Source: Rhizophagus irregularis
Lineage: Eukaryota; Glomeromycota; Glomeromycetes; Glomerales; Glomeraceae
NCBI RefSeq assembly: GCF_026210795.1
Contig: NC_089450.1
Coordinates: 248,001-312,000 of the forward strand
Reading direction: 5' to 3'
Length of the DNA stretch: 64,000 nt
Shown: positions 33,809 to 60,790 of the stretch, one piece after another
How positions within the stretch are numbered: the stretch's first letter is position 1
How the letters are laid out: each line of letters begins with the position of its first letter
Position numbers and translations under genes: made by a program
Notes under the pieces: generated by a model
Told to the model about the DNA's origin: nothing
What the model saw: the letters and a program-made list of their open reading frames with translations, nothing else
The model's database searches: none

Positions 33809-33900
33809 CAATCAGTGGAGTGGGAAAAAAGCTATTACGGAAATTGAGTTATTAAATTTTACTCCAAACAAGATATTACAATTCGATGATGTATATATGT
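33809..33900 (+). promoter_or_regulatory. Conserved upstream element, copy 1
   Basis: Reads CAATCAGTGGAGTGGGAAAA and then AAATTTTACTCCAAACAAG. This matches the element found upstream of at least five other small genes (CAATC(A/T)GTGGGAAAA, then AAGTTTAATTTT...ACGCCAAA). It faces the small gene at 34376-34595. Confidence 0.6.
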
Positions 33901-33965
33901 CTACGCACTATGATGATCTATGGAAATAACGTGTAAATTTTCAATCACGTGAGTTTCTCTGTCCA

Positions 33966-34045
33966 GGAATTCCAAGGCGTTATGCTGCTAATCAGCAGAA
34001 AATTACCGGAATTCCAAGGCGTTATGCTGCTAATTAGTAGAATAT
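33966..34045. repeat. 42-bp tandem repeat
   Basis: GGAATTCCAAGGCGTTATGC recurs with a 42-bp period at 33966 and 34008. The second copy is slightly diverged and incomplete. It lies between the conserved upstream element and the TATA region of the small gene to the right. Confidence 0.8.
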
Positions 34046-34103
34046 CGCTACATCTTTATTTATTATACCTCGCTCCGGACTTACAACGGTTCCCGTTTCC
34101 TAG

Positions 34104-34160
34104 TTATAAAAGAGGATCGATTTGGTTATTAATATAAAACGATCAATTATCTTTTTCCAA
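34104..34160 (+). promoter_or_regulatory. TATA-type core promoter
   Basis: Contains TTATAAAAGAGG (34104) and AATATAAAACGATCAATTAT (34131). The second string recurs, with small changes, upstream of the small genes at 37231 (TATAAAAAAGGCCAATTT) and 58740 (ATATAAAACGACCAATTC, minus strand). Confidence 0.6.
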
Positions 34161-34375
34161 GTTTATTTAATTTTCTCAATTCTCGGAATTTCTGGATTTC
34201 TGAATTATTTTGTAAGTGGTATTTTTAATTTTTTTTTTAGTATTAAAAATTCATGAATCTAAAGAGGTTCTTTGATATTTATTATATTTGAATAGATGAA
34301 TCGAATAATCTTTTTAAGTGAAGAGTTTACCATATTTTTTTTTTTGATTGAGAAATCCCTCTTATTAAAAGAAAC

Positions 34376-34595
34376 ATGTTCGGAATCGTGAATTTCATCA
34401 TGTCTTTTTTTTTTTCCAAAAAGTAATTCTCCTACACGAAATGTTGATCCTCCTTCAAACGATCAATTTCATGAAGAAAGTCAAGAAAATCAAAATGTGA
34501 ACCAAAGACAGAAACGATACTTGGAATTTCGATATATTGACCTTAATAATAATAATGCAGTGTATTCAAGCACCCCCGCAATTTTAAGTAAATAA
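34376..34595 (+). pseudogene. Small promoter-sharing family member with RQKRYL tail, frame broken at T11
   Basis: An ATG at 34376 opens a short frame (MFGIVNFIMSFFF) that runs into a stop just after an 11-T tract at 34404. A different frame starting in that tract continues with PKSNSPTRNVDPPSNDQFHE and ends RQKRYLEFRYIDLNNNN...ILSK at 34595. The tail RQKRYL.FRY is shared with the intact gene at 40424-40780, so the second frame is real coding. A one-base change in the T run would join the halves. This may be a genuine lesion or a sequencing error. The usual low-complexity Asn/Gln linker is short here. Confidence 0.55.
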
Positions 34596-36645
34596 CATCA
34601 GTATTTCAGAAATATATTTATTGTATCGTCATGGGTGTATATCTGATATCGTGACATAATACTGTTTAAGAGGTCTAAATTTATTGTTTAAATTGCCTAA
34701 ATAAAAGTGTGTGGTCAGTAATCCCACTGATCCCTGCATCAAATGTCGCTGGTTATTACTAGTATATGTCAAATGTCAATCTGCCTCATAAAATCATATG
34801 TAAATTAAATAATTGGTTAGTTTATTAGCTTAAATGGATATAACCAATAATGACATATACAAAAAATATCAAATTTTGCTAACTTGTAGCATGGTAGAAT
34901 GATGCAATTTTTACAGTGTATAAAGATAATAAGTATGCAATACTTCTCAGCCTGGCTTAACAACTATATTGTGAGGAACGTCAAAATGTTTAATTATAGC
35001 CGTTCTTCAATTTGTAAAGGAGAGATACCCTATACGTCAAAGCTTCTTCCCAATAAGAGATTATCTGTAACATCTCCACATTTTCTCACGGAATATATGT
35101 TCACAATTATTTTTTGTTTTATACTTTATTAGGGAGTACGAAATTATAACCTGAAATTTTTTCCAAAGATCTATCAACATTTGATCTTTTACCGAATTTG
35201 AAACTAGGTTCTTGGAAATTACATAGACAAATGCAAATATACAATAGGATTTGCTGGGAAAAGATTAAAATTTTACGCCAAATAAATATTTTAATGAATT
35301 ATCAGCTGATTACAAATGAGCCGATCAAATAATCATTCCTTCATTTCTTCATCATATCTAAATGTGAAGTACTTGAATACTGCTGCGATAAAGTTTAATC
35401 TCTCAAAATTCTATAATTTCCCCACCCACGAAATGAATAATGAGACATATGTCAGACAAAGATTTTAAGCAAGGTCAAACAACGCATTTTAAGTAAATTT
35501 TGTTATGGGATAAGAATGAATTTTTATGAGAGTATATTAAAGTTTATCATCGTTCATTTTATTAGATCAATTTGATTTTAAAGTTTCATCAGGGGAGTTG
35601 TACCCGTTGTGTCACTTGATCTTTTATGTAATTGTTATTTATTCTGGGAAATATTTCGGGTCAAGAACAATGTTTTACACCATATATAATAATTTCCTAT
35701 ATGAGATAAACTTGGTCTCCATATAAGAAATCCAATCAATTTCTCTTAATCATTTATTCATTTTCTAAATTCGTTATTCTAAACTTTTAAATACTTTATT
35801 ACTTGGTTATTCTAACTATTCTATAAATATTATAATAATAAATTTCACAAAGAACTTGAAGTTTTTTTTTGCTATTTTAAAGGTGGGATTCACTTGGAAG
35901 AAAAGATATATATCAGATTTGTCTCATCATAATGGTTTAGAATGTTATTTGGATTGTAATTAAAATTTTTAAAATCAAACTTTAAATCACAGAATAATTA
36001 CATAGAATTAATATGTAATTATTTTTGTTATAACAATTTTATAAATTTTATTAAAAAATTTTATAATACAAATCTTTGTATATAGAAGGACGATTAGGAA
36101 TGTGGAATTTCACATTTGACCTCGTATAGGTAATTAATATACGGTTATTATAGAGAGAAAAACTAGTACTTAAACGTTCGATTTTCAGCGGGTAACGACG
36201 GGTGGTTCTTTACTAGTAGTTTTATCCGTGATTATCATTCTGCTCAGTGATAGAAATATTCGATCTTAATTTTTCATATATCTCCAAGTTCATTAAAATT
36301 TCTCTTTTTGAGAATTAATTCAAGAATGTTCAAGCTGAAAACCATCGGAATAATATTTATTCTGATAAACATTAACTTCTACAAATAAATAAATATTTTA
36401 AACGTAATCGAACAAATTAGACAAAGTAGCAACCAAAAGCAAATACTTTTTTGAGTTCATTGTTCATATTTATTTATTTTTCACATTCAAATGTCTGAGA
36501 AATGTATAATTTTTAGTTCCGCATAAAAATCGCGAATAGAATGAATGGATGGAAGATTTTATGTTTTCTTAATTAAATTAAAATTTAATTTTTAGCAATC
36601 CAAAAAAGCTTCCTAATGCTGTATGCTTTATGTTCTTATAAGATA
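34596..36645. other. Intergenic region with a partial upstream element
   Basis: No gene is supported. At 35252-35290 the string TGCTGGGAAAAGATTAAAAT followed by TTTTACGCCAAATAAAT resembles the conserved small-gene element in plus orientation, but no small gene body follows. It may mark a lost copy. Confidence 0.35.
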
Positions 36646-36846
36646 CTATAAGAATATTGTTCCGCTTAAGGATTCAAAATCTGCGTCCAATTGGACAATA
36701 ATATTTCCTAATCGCTCAACTGCGCTGTGATAATCGGTTAACGTATCCGTGGATCTACGTGACGCCAAATTTTTAACAGATCCTTCAGTAATTGTTATAC
36801 TCTTTTGGGAGATAATATCAATTGAAAATCGGCTGGTATAGAACAA
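36646..36846 (-). pseudogene. Divergent coding remnant
   Basis: A 66-codon minus-strand frame without an ATG at its start encodes a well-balanced sequence including TEGSVKNLASRRSTDTLTDY and VQLDADFESLSGTIFL. It begins right beside the conserved element of the small gene at 37231, but on the opposite strand. The composition is unlike random AT-rich frames. I read it as one exon or the truncated end of a helical protein whose other parts are missing. Confidence 0.4.
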
Positions 36847-36861
36847 TACCTATTTTCTTTA

Positions 36862-36935
36862 CAATCAGTGGGAAAAAAAAATATTACGGACTTAAAGTCC
36901 AAATAAAGTTTAATTTTACTTTTTTACGCCGCATA
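36862..36935 (+). promoter_or_regulatory. Conserved upstream element, copy 2
   Basis: CAATCAGTGGGAAAAAAAAA is followed by AAAGTTTAATTTTACTTTTT and TACGCC. It faces the small gene at 37231 and is followed by a TATAAAAAAGGCCAATTTAT core at 37031-37050. Confidence 0.65.
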
Positions 36936-37230
36936 TAATAATTAAATAAAGTTTGAATTATTGATTTAACAGATGATCTAATGATTAAATAAAGTTTGAA
37001 ATTATTTTATTTAACAGATGATCCTAATAATATAAAAAAGGCCAATTTATCATTTATATTTTTCCTATCGTTCATTTTATCAAATTCGCTAATTTTTTAT
37101 TTTATCAACTTCTAAAACATTTTGGTACGTTATTATTATTATTATTTTTATTTTTATTAAATATAATATTTCATAATAAAGAACTTAATCGTCTTCATAA
37201 TTTTTTATATATTAAATAGGAAAACTAAAA

Positions 37231-37374
37231 ATGAACAATAGAATGAACCAATTAATCTCTTATGCGAATGACATGTGGAATTGTGTTAAAACAATATTTG
37301 GAGTAATTATCGACGAGGTAAATCGTTGCGCTAAGTTCCTGTGGAATTCATTAAAATCATATAACATTGTATAA
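37231..37374 (+). CDS. Very small helical protein, promoter-sharing family (47 aa)
   Basis: The ATG follows AAAACTAAAA, as in the paralog at 40424. Forty-seven residues, MNNRMNQLISYANDMWNCVK and so on, align by pattern with the first 45 residues of the 40424 protein (MNRM start, regularly spaced Ile/Val/Trp, LKSY versus IKSF end). The low-complexity linker and RQKRYL tail are missing, so it may be truncated or spliced on to a further exon not found. A GAG|GTAAAT inside could act as a donor. It lies downstream of a conserved upstream element and TATA core in the right orientation. The short amphipathic helix suggests membrane or protein contact; the role is unknown. Confidence 0.5.
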   Translation: MNNRMNQLISYANDMWNCVKTIFGVIIDEVNRCAKFLWNSLKSYNIV

Positions 37375-38553
37375 AAGCAATATTTGTATCAATGTTTTCA
37401 AAATTTTCAAAAGTCTTTTTTTTATTCACAACATTCTTCACGAGAACGACCTCAAAATTTAAATGAATAATAAACCATAAGAAACATAAGCGGTTACTCT
37501 GACTCATAAGGTTAAACTAATAATAATTCCCATAAGATTTAGATAAATTTACTACTACTACTACTTTATTTAGTATATAATATCAAACAGTCAACTCTTC
37601 ATAAATGCACCCTCTGTAAATGTACACATTATATGTAAATATTACCCTCTCTGTAAATTCATACTCATGTATATATCCTAAAGGGTGGTACATTTATGGA
37701 GAGTGACTGGTATATAAGATTTATGTAAGATATGTAAGATATTAAAATTAAAAAAAAATAAATTAACCATTTTATTATTATAATTCATATTTAAAAATAA
37801 AAAAAATATATATATATTATTTTATTATAATGTACATATTTTTACTAGCAAATTTATTTTTTTGTTTTCATAAATAATTTTTTAAGATTTTTTATTTCAC
37901 AAAAATCGTGTGAGAAAATTAGAATAAGAAAATCCATATTTTGCAAAATAAGATCGTATTCAGTAAAAGGTAAGGCCCTATAATACAACTACGTTATTCA
38001 CAAATTTAAATAAAATATATCGATGTATATTTATGACATACCTGCAAATTATAATGTCCCTTGCAAAACAATAAATGGTATCCCTCAACTTTCAAGAATT
38101 TTTTGTATTATTGAATTCATGAAATTTTTCTTTAAAGCATAATTAGTTCCGAGATAATCCATTGAATATGTTACAATAAATTTAAAGATGGACTAAATAA
38201 TCTTTTGCACGAAAAAAGTCCTGAAATATGTTGAGATAAAATTTTCAATTAGACAATCTTACGTATTAGGAGATGCGAGCGGAATCCGTAAATTTGTTAA
38301 TTGCGAAAAGAGCCTGGAATTTTTTTTTAATAAATGACAATTTCTCTCCACAAAATGATAATTACTCTCAATGCGATCGTGACGTAAAGGTTATTTATAA
38401 AAAATTGATTTTAAATTAAGAATCTATGTAAAATTTTCAAGAATCTTAGGTAAATTTGTTGTTGTAGTTTTAATCTATGAAAATTATAGGGAATTAAGTT
38501 GAGAAACTTATCATAAATATACAGAATTAATCTGATAAATAATAATATTTTGA
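37375..38553. other. Intergenic region with a degenerate MITE
   Basis: No gene is supported. It holds the MITE-like element at 37588-37709 and a CTACTACTACTA microsatellite near 37551-37564. Confidence 0.35.
37588..37709. mobile_element. Degenerate MITE related to the CAGTGACACC family
   Basis: A 122-bp element starts CAGTCAACTCTTCATAAATG and ends with the approximate inverted match ATTTATGGAGAGTGACTG. The sub-terminal CACCCTCTGTAAATGTACA units resemble the MITEs at 15131 and 22180. The left side is not flanked by TA, so one border is eroded. Confidence 0.55.
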
Positions 38554-38727: not shown

Positions 38728-39710
38728 GGCGAGGCATTTACAATTTAATCATAATTTTTTTTAAAAGAAAAAAAAAACTTTCATTAGCTAATCTTTTATT
38801 CTTATGGATATGGTCATTGGATTTAAATCGCTTTTGTGAAACAGAATTTAGTTTTGATAAGATAATGCAATCGAGTTGTGAGACAATTTATTTAACCAAT
38901 AGACTTCTCAGTAATTATACTCACGTTTTGGGAAAACAATATTAATTTTGGATATTGACATATTTAATAAAGATGAAAAAGGTAATAAACCGTCCCCTTA
39001 ATTGTTTCATTTTCATTATAAGAATTTTATAGTTCTGTGTTATGCTAGACTTATCTTACGGAGTCGATCTAACCAAAATAATTTTTGAAATTATTAATTA
39101 TAATAAAATATACTTTCAGAGGACAATATTAAAAGTACTTTTCTGGTATAAAAAGTGTGGCTTTACAACCTTTAATTTCCTTATAAAACAATTAAATTAT
39201 ACCATTAATCGTTTAAGTTCGTGTAATTCTTTAATGGTATGTGATATCATAATCATTAAATATAAATAATAAGAATTTGTGAAGAACTTAAAATGCGCTT
39301 ACTCTTTTATTTATTACATTGAATAATTAATGATGGTCTAAAATAATTGAAAAATGTCCTTTGAAGTATTTCATTAAGAAATTCACGCATTAAAGAAAAA
39401 TGTGACCTTAATCTGAATTCTGAAAACTTTCAAATGACGCGTGAAAAGAACGTCTTTTTTTTTATTATGTATTTTTTCGAAATTTCATTGTAAGTAAAAA
39501 ATAATTAATTATCGTAAACCCATTCAACTACAAAAAAAAACATTCTATAGTTTGTTAGCGCCTATGTTAAAAAGTTTATGTACATATGATTTCTTGTAGA
39601 TTGTATAATCTACGGTTATATTAATTAGAAATTAAGTTATACAACACTTATTAACAATATGAATTAAGAAGCACAAAGCGATATTAATTTTTTTTAATGA
39701 TAAATCATAT

Positions 39711-39890: not shown

Positions 39891-40230
39891 CTTAAAATGA
39901 GTGACGTAGCTAAAAAAAAAGAAAAAGTCTGCACCCCCTAATCCTCATCATATATTTTATCAAACAACATATTATTATAAAAATTTTTAATAAAAAAAGT
40001 CATTTATTTCACTGGTATGCTAAGACAAAATATGGTTATTTATTTCTGGAATGGTTATCATTGGATAATAAAATTTATACAAGTTAACTTACCGGATCGG
40101 TACTAAATGATCGAGTTTTGTGATACAGATTATAAATTGATTAGAGATCTGTTTGTAGTAAAACTTAATTAACCAATAGTTAATAGACCTCTCAGTAATT
40201 GTATTTTACATTTTAGGAAGACAACATTAA

Positions 40231-40285
40231 AATTTTTGAATAATGAAAATTCTACGCCAAACAAAAATAAAACTAAAAGGGGATT
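40231..40285 (+). promoter_or_regulatory. Partial conserved upstream element, copy 3
   Basis: TTCTACGCCAAACAAAAATA lies about 170 bp before the ATG of the gene at 40424 and matches the ACGCCAAA part of the element. The CAATCAGTGGGAAAA part is not seen here. Confidence 0.4.
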
Positions 40286-40423
40286 AAATATTCCTTTAAT
40301 TGTTTCATAACATTTTGTACATGGGAATACTAATTATATTATAAATAATAAAAATTCATGAAGAACCTTGGAAGGATAGTTCTGCCATTTTATTACTGTA
40401 TATTGAAAAGGTAAAAACTAAAG

Positions 40424-40780
40424 ATGAACAGAATGATCCTTCATATAAAGTCGTCGGCGAAATATATCAAAAAAAACCCCAAAGGGTTTATTAAGTGGGC
40501 AATCAATCGCATAATTGATAATGTGAAAAATATCTGGAAATATATCAAATCTTTTTTTCAACAAAATGACAATTCTTCTAATTCTTCCGATTCTCAAAAT
40601 GGTGATTCTTCCAATTCTCAACAAAATGATGATTCTTCCAATTCTCAACAAAATGGTGATTCTTCCAATTCTTTCAATTCTTCCAATTCTCCTCCGCAAA
40701 ATAATTATGACGTAAACAATTATCGAAGACAAAAACGTTACTTGGTTTTTCGATATGTTCCTATAATTTCCACTCGATAA
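40424..40780 (+). CDS. Small basic-helix / Asn-Ser-Gln repeat protein with RQKRYL tail (118 aa)
   Basis: The ATG follows AAAACTAAAG, the same context as other family members. Residues 1-45 are Lys/Ile/Trp-rich and likely helical. Residues 46-92 are Asn/Ser/Gln/Asp low complexity built from a repeated 24-27-bp unit (GATTCTTCCAATTCTCAACA). Residues 101-111 are RRQKRYLVFRY, the tail also found in the broken copy at 34376-34595. No signal peptide is evident. It lies convergent with the related minus-strand gene at 41682-42077. A repeat-length polymorphism would be expected. Function is unknown; I regard it as the best intact member of the RQKRYL branch. Confidence 0.7.
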   Translation: MNRMILHIKSSAKYIKKNPKGFIKWAINRIIDNVKNIWKYIKSFFQQNDNSSNSSDSQNGDSSNSQQNDDSSNSQQNGDSSNSFNSSNSPPQNNYDVNNYRRQKRYLVFRYVPIISTR

Positions 40781-41681: not shown

Positions 41682-42077
41682 TTACCTAAAATAACGACTA
41701 TGTTGTCTGTTTTTCATAGAGGGACGTTTAACGGAACGTTTATATTGCGGCAACTTGTTCATATTAGATGAAGGTTTGAAACCTCTTTGAAATTCATCTT
41801 GCGGCTTCTGATTCATAATAGAATATAACTCCCGGTCTACACTGGATGAATTAATTGGACGTCTTGGAGCTTTAATTAATTGATATAGTGGCTTCTGATT
41901 CAAAATGGAACGTATCATCACGTTCATGACGGGTGGAGGATTGAAACGTTGAACTACAACTACATCCCGTTTCTTCTCGGATAAAGAATCGGAAATTTGA
42001 GGGTTTAGGAACTTCGTTTTGACCCAATTTAAAGCTTCCTCACATCCCTTCAAAAATTTTCGGATTACTTCGCTCAT
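41682..42077 (-). CDS. Small basic protein with MNQKP repeats (131 aa), promoter-sharing family
   Basis: I place the start at the ATG at 42077 (MSEVIRKFLK), because the context AAACCAAAGATGAGCG matches the start of the gene at 58740 (AAACCAAGGATGAGCG). A splice acceptor (TTATAG) lies just before it, so there is probably a 5' UTR intron. Residues 1-25 form a basic helical leader like MSDLIRTRW of the 58264-58740 gene. Later there are LNQKPLYQ and MNQKPQDEFQ units; the latter matches MNQKPQNEPQ of that gene. The C-terminus is Arg/Lys-rich (KRSVKRPSMKNRQHSRYFR) and has no zinc finger. A conserved upstream element lies at 42368-42452. Function unknown. Confidence 0.65.
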   Translation of the reverse strand: MSEVIRKFLKGCEEALNWVKTKFLNPQISDSLSEKKRDVVVVQRFNPPPVMNVMIRSILNQKPLYQLIKAPRRPINSSSVDRELYSIMNQKPQDEFQRGFKPSSNMNKLPQYKRSVKRPSMKNRQHSRYFR

Positions 42078-42367
42078 CTTTGGTTTTATTAATTTCACTA
42101 TAATAAAAATGTCGAAAAATACTTTTAGTCCTTCCTGAAATATTTTTTTTTTTTGATATTAAAATAAAACATCATAAAATAATTAAAAATAATACTCACA
42201 AAATAATTTAGAAAAATTAAAAAAGATTTATTGAAACTTTTAATAAAAAAATATAAAAAATAAAAAGTGGGAAGTTAACGATAATTTGGATTATTTTTAT
42301 ATTCGAATTTCGAAACGAAACGACAAAAGCATAAACATGTAAATATTGATAATCTACAATCTTTTTT

Positions 42368-42452
42368 CTAATATAGGAATAATTTCCGTAATTACATCAT
42401 CATCAGAGGTTTGGCGTAAAATTAAACTTTTAATTGTTTTTTCCCACCAGAT
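42368..42452 (-). promoter_or_regulatory. Conserved upstream element, copy 4
   Basis: In gene sense it reads CTGGTGGGAAAAAACAATTA, then AAAGTTTAATTTTACGCCAA, GATGATGATG and AATTATTCCTATATTAG. It lies about 290 bp upstream of the ATG at 42077 and in the same orientation. Confidence 0.65.
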
Positions 42453-44175
42453 AATACTATACTTTTTATGTCATCATCTAGAAATTTCGTGTGAAATGCT
42501 AACGAAAATGGAAATAATCGGGGCAAGTTTTCATTTATGAATATCTTAAAACCGGTAATTGAACATGTTGTCATATGTATGGTATGATTTTTATTATAAC
42601 ATGTCTTTGACGTTTTGAATTTGTCTTTGACGTTTTTGAATTTGTATAGTTACATTACATGATTTTTAAAACTTTAATTTTCTCGAGTTAATTCTAGAAT
42701 ATTTTAATCTTAAAGACTGAAAAAAAAAAAAAGTATCTATCGAAGATTTTGAAGGTGGTATTAAAAAAAAAATAGGTTTTGCGGTTTAGAAATCTTTTAC
42801 AATTTTAGATATTTTCAAAATTGACCTGTTAGCAAAAAGGCTGATTAATTCTAAGAATTTTTTTTTGAATTCTTTAAAAAGGTTTATAATAATTTATACA
42901 TAGTCTAGACCATATAAATATAATATTTATATATTCAGTAAGACAAAATTTTCTTTGTTTGAAACAAAGAAATTAAATTAGAGAAATATTTCACAGAACT
43001 TAAATAAAAATAGCTAACCCAATATTTATTGATAAAAGTCTCGATTTGATTGTAAATTCCCAACATTCTATCTATCCCAATAAGATTGCCCCAATAATAA
43101 ATCGCTTCTAATGATGCTCCATACCTAATGAAGGAACATTTCATCACAATCAAAGAGGGTAACTAGACTTGAAAGGAAGTAAGATGGAAACTCCTCGCAT
43201 TCTACATATTCTGTAAAATGACATCGTGATAAGTAAATACCTAAACTCTATTTAACTAAAATTTAGTACTTATTACGCTAAACATCTTATTTTTGAGAAT
43301 CCAATAAGGACATTGATATTTATTACGTAATTTTTTAGGGGGGAGACTGTGTAGCAAATATCTTGCGTTACACTTAATAATAAATCATGTGATCTAATGT
43401 TGTAATTTAATTGGTTATGGTGTATAGTATGGGTAATAAATTTAACTAAAAACGAAATATAAACAAAAATAAATATTAAGTTTAGAAAAAGTTCAAAGGA
43501 TCTAAGGAAAGATACATTAGGTTATTCGTGCTCTTATTATCATATGATCCATAAATTCTTTTTTTAAATGAACTTAGTTTAATATATTATATTTAAATTT
43601 TATCGCCGTTTTCAAAAAAATGGTGGGCAGTTTATTTGTTCGAATTACGAATATCAATTTTCGTCCTGTTTTCACCCGGTTATCGTCCCGGTTTTCGGAT
43701 TTCCTTTTTTTTTTTTATTAATTCGCAGATCATAAGATCAGGTCATGAAAATCGTCAGGTTATTGAAATCGTCAGATCATAATATACTCCAATAATCATC
43801 AAATAATCGTAGCTCAATTTTAAGAAGTACAATTCCAATTATAGGTAATGAAAAAGTTTATGTAAAAAATCAAAAAATACGAGAATGCGCCAAAAAACAC
43901 AAAATAAATTTTACTTTTAAAACCTGTTTCATGCAAGCTTGCAAAAATATCTATTTTTTTTACCCCTTAGCCCCTGCTCTCCAAATCTAATAAATAAATT
44001 TGTGTTCAAAATAATCAATAGAATATAAATATTTGAGACGTAATATGTAAATACATCAATTTTATAAGGCCTTATGGCCTTTTATAGTTTTAGTAAAAGT
44101 GCAAAACTATTTATAGCTCGCGACAATAAACAAATAAAACAAATAAATTATACTGTACGTGTATTATCAATTGAT
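42453..44175. other. Intergenic region with an LTR-like relic
   Basis: No gene is supported. At 43336-43350 a purine tract GGGGGGAGACTGTG is followed by TAGCAAATATCTTGCG, which looks like a polypurine tract and LTR start. Sequence at 43367-43420 recurs in diverged form at about 22515. No gag or pol coding was seen. Confidence 0.35.
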
Positions 44176-44271
44176 CTATAAGACTATAACCCTTACGAAG
44201 ACAAGTAGAACCGGATATTCAATTTGTGAGTCCTGATTCGTATGATCAAACTGAAGTATTTCAGGTTGCAT
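44176..44271 (-). pseudogene. Relic of a promoter-sharing small gene
   Basis: An ATG in the family context (AAACCAAAGATG) opens only 31 codons, MQPEILQFDHTNQDSQ and on, unlike the leaders of the other members. The 5' region (AAGGGCTTAAAGTAATGTTC, CATTTTTTAATACTC) matches the 5' leaders of the genes at 42077, 57340 and 58740. The upstream element at 44481-44610 is well kept. I infer that the promoter and leader survive but the coding part has been replaced or lost. Confidence 0.4.
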
Positions 44272-44430
44272 CTTTGGTTTGAGTATTAAAAAATGACGGA
44301 ACATTACTTTAAGCCCTTCTTGAATTTATTTATTTTTTTTATTATCACATTATAAATTAATTAGAATCACACATACAGATATACTAAAAAGTTACAAATC
44401 TTCTAAAAAAGTGAAATTATAAATGATGAA

Positions 44431-44610
44431 TTAATCAATTTATATTAAATAAACAGTAAAGCATATTATATTTATTTTTCCATATAGGAACAATTTTCCA
44501 CTTACATAGAATTAAAGTATGTCAACATCATCAAACGTTTGACGTGAAATAAATACTAATAAATTTCCCACCGATTGTCTGTCTTTTCATGTTATCGCCT
44601 GAATTTCAAG
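44431..44610 (-). promoter_or_regulatory. Conserved upstream element plus core, copy 5
   Basis: In gene sense, the distal part CTTGAAATTCAGGCGATAAC is followed by CAATCGGTGGGAAA, TACTTTAATTCTATGTAAGT, GGAAAATTGTTCCTATATGG and the core AATATAAATTGATTAATTCA. Almost the same string stands at 60592-60790 in plus orientation. This is the most complete copy on the minus strand. Confidence 0.7.
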
Positions 44611-44929
44611 ATGCAGAAGCGAAAATTAGAGAAAAACCATAAAATGATTAAACAAGTTTCATTGATGGATAATAGTATACCTAAGAATAAGAATTTTGGA
44701 AGACTCTGTAGTTCTTGTCAAAGCACAAGGCATGACGAAGACGCAAGATCTTACGCACCACTACACTCATACTACTCATACTTTCGAAATTTTAGCATTG
44801 GAAGGCATATTCTGTTCTATAGACGAATCTTCAATAAGAATTTCTTCTATATTCATCGCATGTAATAGACCATCTGATTCATATTCGTACTTTATATACC
44901 ACTGTAAATCGGATATCGCCAAATCCTGA

Positions 44930-47016: not shown

Positions 47017-48165
47017 TTAACCTTTCAAAAGATATTGACGAATCTTGATAAGATCCGTTATCACCGTTTTTCTTCCAGATGGTTCAGCAAGATTTAAACT
47101 ACTATTTCTACGATTATTTTCCTTTGGCCACCTTTTAATCACGATTGACTGTTTTTTTGGCAGTCCTACAACAATTTCCTTCCAATATGATGCGGGAATT
47201 TTAGCTCGGTAAAACGTTACATACGTAGAAATGACACGGAGGGCAAAAATTTCTTGATCAACATAATCCTCAAGCATATTCTCATACCCGCAGGCTAGTA
47301 TTTCAGCAGCGAGTTGATATTCTCCAAAACCATTCAAGGAGTAGATATGTTTATTTTTAAAGTGTTTATCCTGTTTTAAAAAGCTGTTTGAGTGAATAAT
47401 AATTAAGATTTCTTAAGAGATATATATCACAAGACAAATGCCGTAATACCTCTACACATATAAAAGCGATGTTTTTCTTATTAACCACAAATTCAGGTGA
47501 TGCTGACACAGATCCATTAGTTATGAATAGTTTGAGGGGTGGTTCAAGTCTAAAATTTAAAATAAACAAATTTAAAAGAAGTTCACCACACAAACAAAAA
47601 AATTTTCTCATAGTTAGGTCACAACCTAACTTTAAAGGGCCAATTATCAAAGTTGACAACACGAACTAGCAGATCGTTTATCAGTGTATCAGTCATGTTC
47701 CTGTAGCGGCAGGCGGTATTTCGATAACATCGTGCAGCTTATCAACAAATGTTCTGACGCAGTCATCCTCAATTTCAAGATTTTCAACGTTGAAATATTC
47801 ATCTTTAAGTATATCACGATCAACCTTTGGGAGAATGTATTTTTCCGGAATGGTGACTAGACAATATTCAAATTATTTATCCGCATTAAATGGATTGTTA
47901 ACATAATGTCATAATGTAATTTGTACCTTTAATATCTATCCTGTGGTATAACTTCGTTCTTGTCAGCTGGCTCATAACTCACTCGCAGTGCATCAAGATG
48001 TTTTTGTTGGAACATAGACGCATATTCAGGGAATATTATACTCGACTCAGGGAAATCGTATGTAGGCTTAGCTTGTTTGAATCTTTTTTGCAATGTTAAG
48101 GGAAAGGTTTTTGGCTGGAGAGTACGTAATGCAGGGCGAAAAATTCTTGCAACTAGACCAGACAT
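47017..48165 (-). pseudogene. PD-(D/E)XK nuclease-like gene, left copy (disabled)
   Basis: Exons are 48165-47927, 47856-47626, 47549-47450 and 47370-47017. The N-terminus (MSGLVARIFRPALRTLQPK) is Arg-rich and presequence-like, suggesting mitochondrial import. The likely active-site region is SASPEFVVNKKNIAFICVE|DKH. The E-D-K motif is divided by an intron placed exactly between GAG and GAT, followed by GEYQLAAEIL, as in PD-(D/E)XK folds. The last exon is open for 117 residues to the stop. Defects: near the end of exon 1 two bases appear to be missing (GATAGATATT), giving a premature TAA. Exon 2 lacks 10 bp that the other copy has after GCTACAGGAACA. The conserved upstream core promoter is also missing. 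From memory this belongs to a large Rhizophagus-type family. Confidence 0.65.
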
Positions 48166-48391
48166 TTTAAAATATGAATATGTTCTATATCTATGTTCTA
48201 TATCTTGAAAAAAATTTATTCTGTGCGTTAATATAGGTCTTTATGTCGCACAGGATGACAGGCATTGCATCATTGCACGTAACCTTCGTGACTCACTCTC
48301 AATATATTCGATAAAATAGTACTTTTACACTAACGGCTAATATAAATAAAACTATAAAACGTGCATACTATACATCGACAGGAGCTCAGCT

Positions 48392-48430
48392 GATTGTCTG
48401 TCTTTTCATGTTATCGCCTGAATTTCAAGG
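48392..48430 (-). promoter_or_regulatory. Isolated distal piece of the conserved upstream element
   Basis: In gene sense it reads CTTGAAATTCAGGCGATAAC and on to GACAGACAATC, identical to the distal part at 44574-44610 save the last base. The rest of the element is absent, so it is a deletion remnant upstream of the nuclease-like pseudogene. Confidence 0.65.
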
Positions 48431-52736: not shown

Positions 52737-53941
52737 ATGTCTCGTGCACGTACTTCAGACGATATTTGGTGGGCAAGGATTTTTGATAGGCTTGACGAGT
52801 TCTTACATAACTATCCGAAATTTCGGTAACAGAGAGCAGGTAAGTGTATGAGAGTATTTCTTTATTACTTAAGTACCACTTAATGTTGACTTTGTATGGA
52901 ATGCAGTTTGCCTCTCCACATTGGCTCTAAAGTAACGATCAAAAATTATAACACCTTCCTTCACAATTACGGATCAAGTGGATACAAGTTCCGGTTTCAA
53001 TTAAACAGTGACAATACAACTGGCGAAGTGTATATAATTGATATGACTTCAGCTGTACATGGGGATATTATTACCCGACTTCAAAATTTTTTTGAAGTTC
53101 CTAATAATGGCGTTGTTGATAATCCCCCAATAGTAGTCACTGGTCAAGTTCGTAAGTGAATATATTCTATTTTGCTTCTTTTATTGAATTTTCAATATTC
53201 TCATATAGTTCACTATGTGCCTGGTGGAAATAGGGTTGAAACAGCTCCTAGTGCTTGTGTACGTCCAGATGTGGCATTTGTTCCAAAACCTGCCGCTTCC
53301 ACTGTAATACCTCGTCCTCCTGGTGATACATGTGTATGTTGAGTTTGATGTGTATTATTGTATTATTTTTTTTTATGTGATTTTTATTATTATGATTCAT
53401 ATAGGGAAATCCACATGCACGGATAATGTGTGAGGTAACTGTAGGCCGAAGTGTTGGTGAATCGGGACGAAAGTGCTTATCTTGGATGCGAGAGCCATAT
53501 GTCCGTGCTGTCATTAGCATCAAGATTTTAGAACCAAGACTAAACATGCAAGAACCTACAACCGGTTATTTTTACAGAACAATGACGGTATATATTATTT
53601 ATTGTTCAATAATACAAAGTTAAGCATGTAGTTTCTTATCTGATTAGTTTGTTTTTAAATATTAGGCCAAACTTTACCGTCAAGGAATGCCAGTACAACG
53701 TTGGGATTTTGGGAACATTAAAAAATATTCACGTGATCCTATCACTGATCCTCCCGGTTGCAATGCGCCAAACTTGGCAGCTTATCGAATAACTATACCT
53801 ATAAGTGAAGTATTCTGGGATCCACCGTCTCCTATCCCACCTGGATATACTCCAGCAATTCCCCCAAACGTAGTTGGTATCAATTTTGTTATTGACTTGT
53901 ACCGGATTCAACGAGTCGCCTTACAAGCTCAAACACCCTGA
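52737..53941 (+). CDS. Uma2-like PD-(D/E)XK endonuclease-fold protein, five exons
   Basis: Exons 52737-52825, 52907-53151, 53209-53333, 53405-53587 and 53666-53941 join in frame to 305 residues. The fold signature is RPDVAFVP (Asp132) followed after about 30 residues by ARIMCEVTV (Glu163), preceded by a HGDIITRLQ helix (81-89). This matches the layout of Uma2/DUF820 proteins. The usual third residue is not Lys here (E-V-T), which is common in Uma2-like proteins. C-terminal residues 215-305 are Pro-rich and include PISEVFWDPPSPIPPGYTP and NVVGINFVIDLYRIQ. For exon 1, a donor at CG|GTAACA must be used; a downstream GTAAGT would leave a TAA in frame. Uma2 proteins are mainly bacterial, so ancient transfer followed by intron gain is possible. 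From memory, Rhizophagus has several such genes. Confidence 0.8.
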
Positions 53942-54190
53942 AATGGGTCTTTATAAATACAAATTAATTAATAAATAAAGTTTACTTCTGTATCTAACCT
54001 TATTGCTAAAGTAGTATATCGTAAAAATGAAATAGGATTGTCCGTTTAAAATTTTTTTTAGTGCCTTAGGGTGATATTATGCAAAAATAAGAGTAAAAGT
54101 TACAGAAACGTTTTATTAATACCATAACAGCGTGATGATACACTAGAAAATAAATATAAATGATCGGGTCTACAGTACATTATGACGCTT
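53942..54190. other. Short intergenic spacer
   Basis: This contains the 3' region of the Uma2-like gene (AATAAATAAAG at 53974 may serve as polyadenylation signal) and the end of the pseudogene to its right. Nothing else is seen. Confidence 0.4.
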
Positions 54191-55569: not shown

Positions 55570-56822
55570 CTAGTTATAAATACTATGAATATCTTCCTCT
55601 ATAAGAACGTGGCGAGGTTCTTCAGGTGCAGACGCGGGCGGACTGTCACTGAAATATTGAGAAATCAAGTTCCCTCGATGCATAACTCTGTATCCTACAA
55701 CCGTAGGATGAAATGCGCGAAGATAAAACGGAACATTTCTGTATTGGTGCGGCAACAGTTGTTGGACCTGAGCGTGAAGATTATTGACCAGTGGGCATGA
55801 TAAGGTACGTGAAGGTAATAGTTGCCATTTTTCCCAATTCTTTAGCTCCTGCGTCACCAGATATATATATATATGGAGGACAAAAATTTAGAGTTAGAGC
55901 TCAGCGAGAGTGGGCAGTCCTCCATTACTATCTTATGAACGCGACAAAAGGCATATACGCACTTTAATTTTTTCGCGGGAAAGTTGAGTCAACTTCTACT
56001 CATTGCCGCTTTATATCTTGTTTCTGTGGGGATCGCGGAATAAAAACCGAGGGTTGAAGATAAGGAAGATGATTATCGCTATGATATCAAGAAGCCTTTC
56101 AAAGCACATGAAGTCGGAATTTTCAAACCTTTTCACATCTTCCTCGCAAGTCTCAAAGTAGCTTTACGCCTGGCGATCTCGGAATTGCAAAGTCCTCAGC
56201 CCTTCATAGCATATGCTTTTGCCGTCAGTATTAACTTATAGGGTAGGTCCTGTGTCGTAACAACGCATTTTTCATATTCCTCTTGCGTTTGTATGGGAAA
56301 AAAGATAGAGGAATATGAAAAATTGCTGCGTATTTATTTCTTTCGAAATTGTTCTGTCGCACAAACCCAACCAACTCACATGACTAGCGGTTCTTCCGAG
56401 CTGCCCTTTTGGGCGCTAGTGATCGTCTCTCCGGAGTGCAGTAACTACTCGACCTGCTCGTTTCATCTGATGAAACAAATTAATCGGGGGAGACTTCAGA
56501 CGATTCTGAGACGAGTCCTTTACTTTCCATAATAAAATATAACTCTTCTGCCTGTTTTTCTAACTCGTTCAAAAAATAAATGCTTGCGAATTCAACTGGT
56601 TGTCAATCTGACTGAAGAGCTAGTTTTTGTCAAAGAGTTTGAATGGCTCTTGCTCTCGCAACTTGGCTACAATTTTAGAACGATCAAGAACATAGCACCA
56701 TTCCCTTTTTCTACCACTGCGCAGCTGTTTGCGCTCAATACCTATTTGGGAAAATTCTTTCCAAGTATATTACTAGAAAATGCCTTTTCACCATTACTTT
56801 TCACACCATTCAGAGTAATCAT
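55570..56822 (-). pseudogene. Large decayed gene of unknown family
   Basis: In order from 56822: MITLNGVKSNGEKAFSSNIL, a frame slip after GKNF, then IERKQLRSGRKREWCYVLDR and KLREQEPFKLFDKN. After stops come EFASIYFLNELEKQAEELYF, MESKGLVSESSEVSPD, a stop, and SSDETSRSSSYCTPERRSLA. Further on are EEYEKCVVTTQDLPYKLIL and a stop after AYAMKG. The last open frame, 55857-55570, contains ELKNWEKWQLLPSRTLSCPL and ends EEDIHSIYN. The local GC content is higher than around. All parts lie on one strand in one direction, so they come from one or two former genes. The family resembles Rhizophagus proteins I recall but cannot name. Confidence 0.5.
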
Positions 56823-57010
56823 AATATAATTCATTGCATCTTGAAAGCCAAAGATTACTCCAAGTAATTAAATTTAAACTCGCGATTTAAAATATATATA
56901 TACAAGTTTTTATTTGAATAATTTCTTTGGATACAATATAAATACAATAAATACAAGGTTCTTTCAAAATATCATTTTAATATAAATCGCAACAAAACCA
57001 TAGTTATTTT

Positions 57011-57340
57011 TTATCTGCGCCTATTGCGGCCATTATGACGACTATGATGTTTGTTCATATCGTCAATTGTTTTGAAAGTTCTTGTACAACCTTTACGAGG
57101 ACAAGTATAAGGTAAATAACTGAAATGACTTTGATATGAATTTTGCGACTGCTGGTTCGTACCGAATGATGGACCAGAATTTGACCTACCAGATGAAGAA
57201 TGTTTTGGTGGTGGTCTCTGTGGTCCCTGAATTAAGAAACGAAGTTTTCTGAGTATTAGAATAACCAAGATTTGACCAAATTAAAAGTATCCTACATTTA
57301 ATGTTAACATTTCCCATAACTTTTGGATTAATTCGGCCAT
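57011..57340 (-). CDS. Small single-finger protein, two exons (86 aa), promoter-sharing family
   Basis: Exon 1 57340-57296 encodes MAELIQKLWEMLTLN. An intron with GTAGGA...TTCAG borders follows, and exon 2 57226-57011 gives the rest. The N-terminal leader is short and helical, like MSDLIRTRW of the neighbour. The middle is Ser/Gln/Pro rich. The C-terminus is one C2H2-like finger with spacing C-x4-C-x12-H-x3-H (C57, C62, H75, H79), in the string CPRKGCTRTFKTIDDMNKHH, followed by a basic tail. The neighbour at 58264-58740 has the same finger. Upstream element at 57513-57614 in the right orientation. The finger may bind nucleic acid; one finger alone usually binds weakly. Confidence 0.7.
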
Positions 57341-57512
57341 CTTTAATTTACCTATTGAGTATAAAAAATTACTTCAGTTCTTGAATTTTATTATTACTGT
57401 ATAACAATATTAATTAAAATTTACCGAATTTTTTTTTTAAAAAAAATCGAAAGTTATAATTTTATAATTTTATATTAAAACAATCGAATAAATATAACCA
57501 TAATTGCTTTTT

Positions 57513-57614
57513 TCCTATATAGGAATAATTTTCCATGTACAGTGAATTAACATCATCAAACATTTGGCGTAAAAATAAAACTTTCAATCTGTAATGGTTT
57601 TTTCCCACTGATTG
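57513..57614 (-). promoter_or_regulatory. Conserved upstream element, copy 6
   Basis: In gene sense: CAATCAGTGGGAAAAAACCA, GATTGAAAGTTTTATTTTTA, CGCCAAATGTTTGATGATG, and GGAAAATTATTCCTATATAG. An AATATAAAATT core stands at about 57465-57478. Confidence 0.7.
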
Positions 57615-58263
57615 TTTTTGAATACTGCTCGTGTTACAGCCTAAATTTTGCCAATTCTACTAAAGATAGCAAATATCTTAGAGACCATTCCATTTTCTTT
57701 CTGAGATTATTATCCAATATTACAGTAGGAAGCTGTAACATACTTCGAGATGCAGAAGAAAAATTAGTAAAATAATATATCTAGAATAATGGTAAACATA
57801 TGAATGGTATAAATTTTTTGAATCGCAAAACTCAGTAAATTCTCATTAAAGCTCAAGACGTGATATTGGTTGTACTAAACGCACTATTTTAGAGTTACAT
57901 TTTTAAATTATGTTTCAGAAGTTAATCCAAACTTGACGAAATAAAAAGTCATACGCGTAGAAGCCTGTAAATATGTTTATTTTTTTTAATCTTAGACTTT
58001 TATCAACTTTAGCGGCTTCGAGTATTAATCAAACTTGACCATTTGCAATTAGGTAAATTTATATTCAAAAGCAACATAATAAATTGTAATATGAAATTTG
58101 GACACACAAAGTTTAATTATACAAATTTAACAGCAGCACATTAATTTCTGTACATGTATTTTTATTTGAAAATTTTCTATTGTTACAATATAAATATAAT
58201 ATTCTTTCAAAAACTTGCTAATTTTTGTAGGTCACAACAATATAATACTATAGTTATTTTTTT
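57615..58263. other. Spacer between the two finger genes
   Basis: Contains a distal region repeated beyond the neighbouring element at 59024-59430: GACCATTCCATTTTCTTTCT, TCATCCAATATT-like strings, and TTCTCATTAAAGC.CAAG. This shows that the 57-58 kb and 58-59.5 kb units are tandem duplicates of a whole gene plus upstream region. No separate gene is supported. Confidence 0.45.
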
Positions 58264-58740
58264 TTATCTACGCTTATTGCCGTTATGACGACTAAAATGT
58301 CTATTCATACTATCAATTGTTTCAAAAGTTCTTGTACATCGTCTATGAGGACAAGAGTAAGATGAAGAACTGGTGCGACTTTGAGGTTCATTTTGTGGCT
58401 TCTGATTCATATCGGAACGTTTATTATTTGGCACCTTGTTCATACCAGATGATGGACCGGAACGACTTTGAGATTTGTTTTGTGGTCTTTTTGGTGAACC
58501 CTGGCTCATAACGGATGAAGGACTAGGACTGAAACTACATTGAGATTGTCTCTGGCTCGTACCGGATGAAGGACTAGGACCGGAGCTCGATGCATATGAG
58601 GAGCTATATGTTTGCTTTTTACCAGACTTTTTACCAGACGGTAGTCCGACCATTTTTCTTATCCAATTTAAAACATTATTAATTCGTCTTTTAATCTCTT
58701 TCCGTGTCTTCTCCCACCGAGTACGGATTAAGTCGCTCAT
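58264..58740 (-). CDS. Small single-finger protein (158 aa), promoter-sharing family
   Basis: The ATG at 58740 lies in the context AAACCAAGGATGAGCG. Residues 1-32 form a basic, probably helical leader (MSDLIRTRWEKTRKEIKRRI). Residues 35-127 are Ser/Pro/Gln rich with repeats of the PSPSSGTSQ, PSPSSVMSQ and GPSSGMNK type. A block MNQKPQNEPQ (111-120) matches the 41682-42077 gene. The C-terminal finger has C130, C135, H148 and H152 (C-x4-C-x12-H-x3-H) in CPHRRCTRTFETIDSMNRHF, with a basic tail. A TTTTTATAG acceptor lies just before the ATG, so a 5' UTR intron is likely. It unites the finger branch and the MNQKP branch of the family. Confidence 0.75.
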   Translation of the reverse strand: MSDLIRTRWEKTRKEIKRRINNVLNWIRKMVGLPSGKKSGKKQTYSSSYASSSGPSPSSGTSQRQSQCSFSPSPSSVMSQGSPKRPQNKSQSRSGPSSGMNKVPNNKRSDMNQKPQNEPQSRTSSSSYSCPHRRCTRTFETIDSMNRHFSRHNGNKRR

Positions 58741-58879
58741 CCTTGGTTTATCTATAAAAATGACAAAAAACTTTAAATTCTTTCCCGAATTTTTGCATTA
58801 AAACACACCAAAACAATTAGAATTACACCTACAAAAAGTCGGATAACGAAAAATTACCAAACTTGAAAAAAAAGTATAA

Positions 58880-59023
58880 ATGAAGAATTGGTCGTTTTAT
58901 ATTGAAAACAAAAACAACATAAATAATCCTTTCCAATATAGGAATCATTTTCCACTTACATTAAATCAAATGTTTGGCGTAAAAATTAAACTTTCAATCT
59001 AACAGTTTTTTTCCCACAGATTG
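58880..59023 (-). promoter_or_regulatory. Conserved upstream element and core, copy 7
   Basis: In gene sense: CAATCTGTGGGAAAAAAACT, GATTGAAAGTTTAATTTTTA, CGCCAAACATTTGATTTAAT, GTAAGTGGAAAATGATTCCT and ATATTGGAAAGG. The core ATATAAAACGACCAATTC is followed by TTCATTTATAC. It lies about 140-280 bp before the start at 58740. Confidence 0.7.
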
Positions 59024-60159
59024 TACTTGAACACTGCTTGTGTTACCACAATTCTTTCTTACAAATCATTCCATTTTTCTTTCTGAGAATATCATCCAAT
59101 ATTGTGCTAGGAAGATGTTAACGTAAGAATAATGGTAATTCGCAATACGTTTTTTATTATATATAGATGAATTATCCTCTGGAAAATTCTGATTTTACGT
59201 TTTCGTTATACTACACTTTTCCGAAGTCTGAGAGACACTCTCTTTCTATAAGCTTCTGATAAGGGTTGTTGATGAATTCTACTTCACTAGATGTGTTGAA
59301 AAGTATATCTTGAAATTAGATGGAAATCAAGAATTTCTGGAATGATTGCAAGACTCGGTAAGTTCTCATTAAAGCGCAAGGCATATTGAAGACGTCTGAT
59401 CTTTTAGATTATTGGTTGTACTAAACGTTAGAACTACAACAATGTTACAATTATACTTTAATTAAGTCATACGCATAGAGCTTGTAAATATATTTATTTG
59501 TTTTCACCTTCAGTACTTATCAACTTTAACTGCTTAACGTGAATATCAATCATTTAATCAAATTAAAATCGATCGAGCACTCAATCTTTAGATGCTGACC
59601 AATTGTAATTAACTATATATATATTCTTTGATTCAAATAAAATTGTGGCACAATGTTTAATTTTTCGATTGTATATGTATTGAATAAATATAAAAGCTAA
59701 GTATTGATAACCCATTTATAATACTACTAGATCAGTAAATACTAATACATATATATCTACGTTATATTAAAGTTACAGTTGACTTATTGTTATATTGAAT
59801 AGATAAAATTAAAGTTATAATAAAGTTATATAATAAATTTATTTTCAAAGCTGTAAATAAGTCGTAAAGTAATCTATAAACTCTATTTAAGAAATAGTAG
59901 TAGTGCTCTAATCCAAACTAATTGTAAATACTGAAATAATCTATTATTATGATTCAAATGTAAAAAATGTTCTGTCAGTAATAAACATTAAACAGTCTTG
60001 AAGAAATAAAAATTTCATTAATTATTAAGAAAATTACATTTAACATATAAAATGTCTTGCTCAAAATTATCTAATATGGATAACCATCATACATTGCAAC
60101 AATAAAAGAATTGGACTATTTAACTAACAATTTGATTATTCAAAATTTAACACAAAAGG
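59024..60159. other. Intergenic region
   Basis: The first 430 bp repeat parts of 57615-57900. Beyond that the sequence is AT-rich with no supported gene. Confidence 0.35.
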
Positions 60160-60405
60160 ATGACTTCAATAATCAAATTAATATATTTGGAACACCACAA
60201 AGATGTCGTATGCGTTGATCACGCAGATAAAATATTTATAACTAATGGAAAATGTGTAAATATAATTGATATTTATCATACCATAGATCGTGCAAGTGCA
60301 CAGAAAATAATAATGGATATAAAATGCATAGATAAAGATATACAGTATCAACATGTATATTATGATTATCTATTAAGAGAAAAAAATATGATAATTATTG
60401 CATAA
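60160..60405 (+). CDS. Hypothetical 81-aa protein
   Basis: An open frame starts MTSIIKLIYLEHHKDVVCVD and includes KCVNIIDIYHTIDRASAQKI and YQHVYYDYLLREKN. Its balanced composition is less AT-driven than nearby frames. No promoter element, splice site or known domain is visible, and the last residues (MIIIA) run into AT-rich sequence. It could be a small gene, a fragment of a larger one, or chance. Confidence 0.3.
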   Translation: MTSIIKLIYLEHHKDVVCVDHADKIFITNGKCVNIIDIYHTIDRASAQKIIMDIKCIDKDIQYQHVYYDYLLREKNMIIIA

Positions 60406-60591
60406 TACTTGACAATTATCATTTTGTAATGATTTATTACATTAATATTATAATTCAAAAACCTGTCAATATTCATGTTAACATACTGCATGTATATGTC
60501 AACATTATGATTACATGGATGGTATAATGATTGTAAAATCATGTCAAAAAAATTGGCCTTGACAGCAAAGTAAGTCAATTAACGAATGAAT

Positions 60592-60790
60592 CCTTGAAAT
60601 TCAGGTGATAACATGACAATCGGGGGGAAACATTATTACACATTAAGAGTATTTATTTCACACAAAATGTTTGATGATGTTAACATACTTTAATTCTATT
60701 TAAGTGGAAAATTATTCGGGAAAAAAAAATATATTTATTTCAATATAAATTGATTAATTCATCATTTATAATTTCACTTTTTTAGAAAAT
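60592..60790 (+). promoter_or_regulatory. Conserved upstream element and core, copy 8
   Basis: CTTGAAATTCAGGTGATAAC, then CAATCGGGGGGAAAC, TGTTTGATGATGTTAACATA, TACTTTAATTCTATTTAAGT, GGAAAATTATTC and the core CAATATAAATTGATTAATTC ATCATTTATA. It is nearly the same as 44431-44610 (other strand). Here it stands directly in front of the nuclease-like gene copy rather than a small gene. Confidence 0.7.

Follow-up and report, generated by a model that had tools for sequence, protein, structure and literature searches.

Fungi have locally duplicated clusters of lineage-specific small genes. The locus described here lies in a 64,000-nucleotide stretch of Rhizophagus irregularis DNA (the window). It resembles such clusters in its tandem and inverted copies, its diverging proteins, the pseudogenes among its intact members, and a putative promoter duplicated alongside the genes. 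The initial annotation proposed a family of small genes with a common upstream region, arranged in two opposed runs, and our analysis bears this out, with the genome searches finding the family at one locus of contig C22 only. We consider it probable that this is a single-locus small-gene cluster, in which a unit of promoter and gene was multiplied by local direct and inverted duplication and the intact genes are probably similarly expressed. The features are listed in window coordinates; each gene bears the name of the element copy upstream of it, and the positions of the TATA-like block, 5'UTR and intron are those we infer.

33800–33945, + strand: element copy A33, CArG-like block degraded (TTTTACTCCAAA); leave-one-out 20.6 bits, best shuffle 8.9.
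34377–34595 (approximate), + strand: A33 gene remnant or frameshifted gene, read in three frames, the frame broken at a T homopolymer.
35232–35400, + strand: possible element copy A35, weak, with an exact TTTTACGCCAAA near 35.25 kb.
36775–36935, + strand: element copy B36, internally rearranged, with the exact block CAATCAGTGGGAAAA.
37231–37374, + strand: B36 gene candidate, 47 aa, with a predicted amphipathic helix.
38893–39043, + strand: element copy C38, decayed, the sister copy to C40.
40182–40393, + strand: element copy C40, near-exact TTCTACGCCAAA retained, remaining blocks diverged.
40424–40780, + strand: C40 gene, an ORF of 118 aa.
41682–42077, − strand: D42 gene, an ORF of 131 aa with an amphipathic helix, finger absent.
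42345–42500, − strand: element copy D42; leave-one-out 40.7 bits, best shuffle 11.1.
44140–44290 (approximate), − strand: E44 gene, a decayed relic of the F57 type, read by eye.
44395–44612, − strand: element copy E44, CArG-like block minus one base; leave-one-out 86.7 bits.
48389–48429, − strand: X48, distal fragment of an E44-type element, 38/38 identical to E44.
57011–57340, − strand: F57 gene, 86 aa, exons 57340–57296 and 57226–57011.
57450–57658, − strand: element copy F57, carrying CCTATATAGG; leave-one-out 95.5 bits, best shuffle 7.7.
58264–58740, − strand: G58 gene, an ORF of 158 aa.
58857–59059, − strand: element copy G58, carrying CCTATATTGG; leave-one-out 91.0 bits, best shuffle 9.5.
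60593–60793, + strand: element copy H60, CArG-like block deleted; leave-one-out 87.6 bits, best shuffle 8.9.
61003–62036 (end approximate), + strand: unrelated multi-exon gene downstream of H60.

Leave-one-out profiles of seven copies were scanned over 94 kb, with 20 Markov-shuffled sequences of 94 kb as controls, and the best shuffle scores per run ranged from 7.7 to 11.1 bits. At least eight copies had been proposed at first. Six of the seven profiled copies (33.8, 42.4, 44.4, 57.5, 58.9 and 60.6 kb) exceed the best shuffle of their own run. The 36862 copy scores 8.4 bits, below its best shuffle of 9.6, and is retained by its exact block and by the alignment of A33 with B36 (score 85, shuffle maximum 69; better than 100 of 100 shuffles). 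The 40231 copy was missed in the 94 kb by the profiles of the seven and comes down to one near-exact block. The orientations of the copies were given correctly. Among 10 upstream regions, 15 of 45 pairwise alignments score above their 100 shuffles. C38 and C40 align with a score of 118 (shuffle maximum 79), and the TATA region of A33, in which a TATA-like AATATAAAACGA lies near 34130 beyond an insertion, aligns with G58 at 62 (shuffle maximum 48). A35 rises above the shuffles in 0 of 9 pairwise tests, and a family gene was not recognised downstream of it. A sequence-only covariance model (R1) recovers six copies, all contained in the model by construction, and gives the 42-kb copy an E of only 0.32; it does not count as independent evidence.

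Blocks inside the element were counted within the window and set beside their average over 100 shuffles. When one mismatch is allowed, TWYTACGCCAAA occurs 8 times against 1.6, two of the eight lying outside the copies (43271 and 53660); CAATCNGTGGGAAAA with at most two mismatches occurs 5 times against 0.7, and GTGGAAAATNATTCCTATAT with at most three occurs 3 times against 0.1. The element with fixed parts, as first described, is real, though less uniform: the distal CTTGAAATTCAGG is exact only at 44598, 60593 and 48417 (the last a fragment missing from the initial annotation), with 9 matches at up to two mismatches, and is a trait of a sub-group, absent from some copies. For CCWWWWWWGG there is no enrichment in the window: its count of 7 compares with 4.6 and is reached by 16 of 100 shuffles. 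F57 and G58 have a perfect CArG box and D42 one that differs by a single letter; in C40 none was recognised. The window contains GTGGGAA 13 times, with 6 of these sites inside copies. The comparison of block scores between copies is biased toward F57, the source of the block strings. The CArG and CSL readings of these blocks are presumptive, and so is an E2F-like reading of TTTGGCGTAAA on the reverse strand, which was also considered.

Within the 147-Mb genome, DNA, pattern and protein searches confine the family to a stretch of approximately 41 kb on contig C22; a truncated family copy lies outside the window at C22:322.6 kb. Two DNA and three pattern queries for the element match in the cluster only, as does the C40 upstream region, and the E44 element as a genome query gives 4 matches, all inside the cluster. 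Four proteins or exons, a query set without the B36 and A33 proteins, match at E <= 0.01 in the cluster only. On contigs other than C22, exon 2 of F57 finds weak zinc-finger-like protein matches with E from 0.013 upward, which are taken as apparent general C2H2 similarity. All these counts are lower bounds, valid at the sensitivity of the searches. The genome-wide co-regulated set that had been suggested did not survive: copies of the element elsewhere were not found, and such a regulon is rejected at this sensitivity. Since the family was found only at the C22 stretch, we regard it as a local cluster instead of a dispersed regulon or a mobile repeat.

That the element is a MITE, solo LTR or similar mobile repeat inserted beside small genes seems to us extremely improbable. 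Its copies do stand in both orientations, and one precedes an unrelated gene. However, DNA and pattern searches found no copy elsewhere in the 147 Mb. The homology runs on into the gene and the 3' part, and the unit is therefore element plus gene. Inverted repeats enclosing B36, C38, C40, D42, X48 and others, among the 25 longest of 67 pairs, are AT-rich and 70–79% complementary, with arms that differ from copy to copy. Moreover, 13 loci on other contigs that hold relatives of the 61003 gene gave no match to the element at E <= 1.

A viral origin was also considered and rejected: the comparison of the G58 protein with viral contigs gave 13 pattern matches, among which a relative was not found. 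Among the titles listed from the openly accessible journal literature on Rhizophagus (gene families, promoters, clusters, orphan genes, MADS/E2F), none describes the cluster.

Four genes of the family have intact frames of 86–158 aa, and a fifth ORF has 47 aa. The claim that the element stands upstream of small genes fails at 44.4 kb, where a relic follows, and at 60.6 kb, where a different, larger gene does. In the E44 relic, the start context and the start of the finger are recognisable by eye and the frame is lost; its global alignment is poor and unscored. The gene at 61003 belongs to a dispersed family, has one stop within a matched exon, and has an inverted duplicate at 48165–46759, upstream of which X48 is located. 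The 94 kb contain 11 ORFs of at least 118 aa, some of them outside the family, whereas 20 shuffles average 0.15; chance ORFs as long as that of B36 (47 aa) are common.

The C40 protein comprises an N-terminal amphipathic helix, an Asn/Ser/Gln-rich middle and an RQKRYLVFRY tail, with neither a finger in the protein nor a CArG-like box upstream. The A33 remnant ends in a similar tail, RQKRYLEFRY, and the gene DNA of the two aligns by a narrow margin (78, shuffle maximum 74). The G58 protein carries a long N-terminal helix, a Ser/Gln-rich linker and a C2H2-like finger, CPHRRCTRTFETIDSMNRHFSRH; D42 is related to it in coding DNA (113, shuffle maximum 83). AF2 models made without an alignment predict helices at residues 2–17 and 19–49 of C40 (block pLDDT 78–95) and at 2–31 of G58 (block pLDDT 78, 93 and 92), with the G58 finger unfolded in that model. 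The hydrophobic moment is reached by 4 of 500 shuffles for B36 (0.63), 5 of 500 for C40 and 9 of 500 for D42. Overall, four of the five members show the N-terminal amphipathic signal at no more than 9 of 500 shuffles; F57 is the exception, and its amphipathicity is not significant (90 of 500 shuffles reach it). Among other ATG ORFs of at least 45 aa, 8 of 138 have an amphipathic p <= 0.02 (Fisher p 0.0001 against the four of five). A signal peptide was not recognised in the family proteins on reading by eye.

F57 has a putative 69-nt GT..AG intron and a C-terminal C2H2-like finger, CPRKGCTRTFKTIDDMNKHHSRH. Its exon 2 matches Pfam zf-C2H2 with E 0.0035 and 18.2 bits, short of the 25.2 cut-off, and also scores 15.7 against a cut-off of 27; G58 reaches 16 bits, also under 27. 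In a pattern scan of the 94 kb, the motif C-x2-4-C-x12-H-x3-5-H occurs in F57 and G58 and not in D42, C40 or B36.

Conservation of the element was compared part by part in one intact pair, F57 and G58. Their elements are identical at 96/118 positions (81%) and their 5'UTRs at 84/133 (63%), the element being better kept (p 0.002). The linker has 76/120, the finger and tail 70/96, and the 3' part 78/102; the lead of the element over the finger (p 0.19) and over the 3' part (p 0.41) is not significant. The distal region keeps 84% over aligned bases (65/77), with 67 gapped columns. Because the finger, 3' part and distal region are comparably kept, duplication age or gene conversion could account for part of the likeness. 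The comparison of this one pair suggests that the promoter may be under selection.

On the other hand, the upstream likeness may be purely a leftover of local duplications without selection, most or all of the genes being in decay. We hold this to be unlikely, though it deserves the most weight among the alternatives. It would account for the elements of the dead E44 and of H60, which fronts a foreign gene, being 77% identical, with the intact pair at 69% by local alignment, and for the element lacking a significant excess over the finger and 3' part. It would also fit the C22:322.6 kb copy, which is similarly diverged from F57 throughout (intron 65/69, linker 95/101, finger 86/89, 3' part 102/111). 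Against it stand the better-kept element relative to the 5'UTR and the long frames of the cluster, which shuffles almost never produce. The finger gives dN 0.23 and dS 0.81 over 31 codons, a ratio of approximately 0.29 (Fisher p 0.015 on rounded counts). Furthermore, TTYTACGCCAAA is exact before 4/4 intact frames of at least 86 aa and 1/6 others (p 0.048, chosen post hoc). With the 47-aa B36 ORF counted as intact, the ACGCCAAA association stands at 4/5 against 1/5 (p 0.21) and so depends on the counting of B36. The early caution that duplication could explain the similarity was partly apt: gene and element were duplicated as one, and the element persists in dead copies.

A non-coding or structured-RNA locus with a transcribed conserved part is a very unlikely reading. 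In F57 and G58 the upstream part and the 3' part are indeed the best kept. However, there is no Rfam match at the gathering score in 33–64 kb, and long frames follow the element. As a TATA-like block marks the end of the element nearest the gene, the start would be expected downstream of the conserved blocks.

Returning to the local cluster of promoter-plus-gene units, it probably grew by direct and inverted duplication of that unit. The analysis shows the homology of the copies, their confinement to the cluster in the genome as searched, the presence of intact and dead members, a helix signal in four of five and a finger pattern in two; promoter activity, co-expression and protein function are what we infer for it. 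The element would be the proximal promoter of a transcribed gene. Read toward that gene, it presents GTGGGAAA first, then TTTTACGCCAAA, then the CArG-like GGAAAATTATTCC/CCTATATAGG and finally the TATA-like AATATAAA. Every intact copy would attract the same factors, so that the intact genes would probably be expressed in similar conditions. The units at 33.8 (probably), 38.9 and 44.4 kb, and that at C22:322.6 kb, are dead, and the 60.6-kb copy now fronts an unrelated gene; the element persists before the dead (44.4) and the foreign (60.6) gene. The products mostly have a predicted N-terminal amphipathic helix and a Ser/Asn/Gln-rich middle (a low-confidence prediction), with a C2H2-like finger in two. 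As most share the helix and only two have the finger, the helix is probably the working part, touching membranes or proteins. The finger is probably an optional contact to nucleic acid or protein.

A more far-reaching version appears to us rather doubtful, more so than pure inheritance. It describes a fast-evolving locus of amphipathic-helix microproteins, single in the genome, where one promoter design is kept better than the majority of the proteins and switches on a variable arsenal jointly. Both switch and helix would be selected, and the remainder of each protein could vary freely. Plant or microbial membranes are an example of a target proposed for such an arsenal.

If the genes of the cluster are co-expressed, they provide R. 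irregularis with a compact natural experiment: one putative promoter stands before live, dead and one unrelated gene, and its cis-elements can therefore be read by comparison. The locus also illustrates how a fungus can create new small genes in one place.

Compared with MADS/SRF (CArG) target promoters, two intact copies contain the candidate sites CCTATATAGG and CCTATATTGG; the CArG count, however, is not enriched in the window. MADS-box PF00319 has 5 matches in the genome at three loci (C29, C32 and C3), with SRF and MEF2 types not distinguished. As for CSL target promoters, GTGGGAA is present as a candidate site in 6/10 copies, and the EMSA probe of PMC3598750 contains GTGGGAA. F57 and G58 share C-x4-C-x12-H-x3-H with C2H2 zinc-finger proteins (PF00096/PF13894), from which they differ in scoring under the curated cut-offs and in having one finger, with none in C40, B36 or D42. 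Unlike other local small-gene clusters of fungi, the present one is a single locus with an amphipathic N-terminal helix in four of five members and an optional single C2H2-like finger. At present we see in it an orphan cluster, not a novel mechanism.

The initial annotation described at least eight copies of a conserved element upstream of tiny genes in two opposed runs. This observation is real in part and reflects a duplicated promoter-plus-gene unit. The unit is local and partly dead, and it encodes small, fast-changing proteins, most of which start with an amphipathic helix. We name the copies, and the genes downstream, by kilobase: A33, A35, B36, C38, C40 and H60 point rightward, and D42, E44, F57 and G58 leftward; X48 is a leftward distal fragment of an E44-type element.

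Leave-one-out profiles were built from seven copies (A33, B36, D42, E44, F57, G58, H60) and run on 94 kb and on 20 shuffles of that length. Six of the seven outscored every shuffle, and B36 fell short (8.4 bits vs 9.6 in shuffles). E44 and H60 reached 40.6 and 35.7 bits when both were withheld (shuffle maximum 6.5). The seven-copy profiles missed C40, C38 and A35 in the 94 kb (at most 5.0 bits each). In pairwise alignment of 10 upstream regions, 15 of 45 pairs outscored all their 100 shuffles, including all ten among D42, E44, F57, G58 and H60, those of A33 with B36, F57 and G58, and B36-C38 and C38-C40. B36 is the sole tie of the C38/C40 pair to the remaining copies, and A35 had no pair above its shuffles.

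The element, in F57 letters, contains the blocks CAATCAGTGGGAAA, TTTTACGCCAAA, GGAAAATTATTCC with CCTATATAGG, and AATATAAA. Every block lies within one letter of F57 in G58 and within two in E44; the other copies have lost part of the blocks. The distal block CTTGAAATTCAGG is exact in E44, H60 and X48 only, and the other copies carry no exact match. TTYTACGCCAAA is exact upstream of all four intact frames of at least 86 aa (C40, D42, F57, G58) and in one of the six remaining copies, A35 (p 0.048), a comparison picked post hoc on data already seen, with p 0.21 once B36 is rated intact. F57 and G58 carry a perfect CArG box, but the window shows no enrichment for this box; three loci of the genome encode MADS-box proteins.

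The G58 (158 aa) and F57 (86 aa, one inferred 69-nt intron) products end in C-x4-C-x12-H-x3-H, a C2H2-like finger with Pfam scores below cut-off. D42 (131 aa) lacks the finger, and its coding DNA is akin to that of G58 (score 113 vs shuffle maximum 83). The RQKRYLxFRY tail of C40 (118 aa) recurs in the broken frame of A33, where the alignment score clears the shuffle maximum by a narrow margin (78 vs 74). The B36 ORF has 47 aa, a length frequent by chance: 137 ORFs are at least as long, vs a shuffle mean of 68. Frames of at least 118 aa number 11 in the 94 kb, some belonging to other genes, vs a shuffle mean of 0.15.

B36, C40, D42 and G58 are significantly amphipathic at the N terminus (3-9 of 500 shuffles as high), whereas F57 is not (90 of 500). 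These four of five members compare with 8 of 138 control ORFs (other ATG ORFs of at least 45 aa) at p <= 0.02 (Fisher p 0.0001). Three of the eight controls also reach a moment of at least 0.63, with B36 just under (0.629); one of these three corresponds to exon 1 of the 61003 gene, described below. AF2 without alignment predicted one helix in G58 (residues 2-31) and two in C40 (2-17 and 19-49), the rest being mostly of low confidence.

For the single pair F57/G58, identities were counted over aligned bases. The element (96/118) is better kept than the 5'UTR (84/133, p 0.002), but not significantly better than finger and tail (70/96, p 0.19) or the 3' part (78/102, p 0.41). Distal identity is 65/77, with 67 columns gapped; exon 1 gives 27/45, the linker 76/120, and the intron 38/69, which is no neutral yardstick because the open frame of G58 has no matching intron. 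Over the 31 codons of the finger, 9 differences are synonymous and 15 non-synonymous, giving dS 0.81 and dN 0.23 (Fisher p 0.015, rounded counts).

Elements stand upstream of small genes at C40, D42, F57 and G58. At E44, however, a finger gene read by eye has decayed, and H60, whose similarity to E44 ends at 60793, precedes an unrelated gene:

61003-62036, + strand, multi-exon 61003 gene, unrelated to the family, downstream of H60
48165-46759, - strand, inverted duplicate of the 61003 gene, 84-89% identical

One exon of this gene drew 15 matches, of which 13 lay on other contigs. None of these 13 loci (about 3.1-3.2 kb each, possibly short of the full upstream region) held the element at E <= 1, whereas H60 and X48 did. 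By eye the gene has a nuclease-like or effector-like domain look; one exon had no Pfam match. Outside the window, at 322600-323020 of contig NC_089450.1, a broken F57 copy begins at the F57 start codon without the element, just after a splice-acceptor-like TTATTCTAG. It has lost the first cysteine of the finger and matches F57 exon 2 twice, in different frames.

Across the genome (146.7 Mb, 32 contigs), every DNA and pattern match of the element fell within the cluster and none beyond it. The 311 bases upstream of G58 and the E44 element gave four matches each, C40 upstream only itself, and three pattern searches 3, 1 and 3; reversed control patterns gave 0. Among the four protein queries, G58 recovered itself, F57 and the copy at 322,797 of the contig, and D42 and C40 themselves alone; F57 exon 2 matched four times in the cluster (E <= 2e-7) and, weakly, 18 times on other contigs (E 0.013 or higher). 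A missing match is not proof of absence, because the searches score best candidates only and skip common words.

G+C in the window is about 19-35% per 4-kb block. Two adjacent multi-C2H2 genes of repeated finger triplets adjoin the cluster (28094-33158, - strand; ORFs of 377 and 1117 aa). A 177-aa ORF (8558-9091, - strand) matches a P-loop/AAA or STAND-like NTPase (PF00004 AAA, 22.4 bits vs cut-off 21.2). A diverged direct duplication joins 5344-6395 and 25475-26552 (64% identity across 1.1 kb). A probable multi-exon gene (52740-53950, + strand) looks PD-(D/E)XK/Uma2-like by eye, with no Pfam match for two stretches searched.

The initial annotation also suggested a co-regulated, lineage-specific set; judged from the sequence, joint regulation of the intact copies would be the natural expectation.
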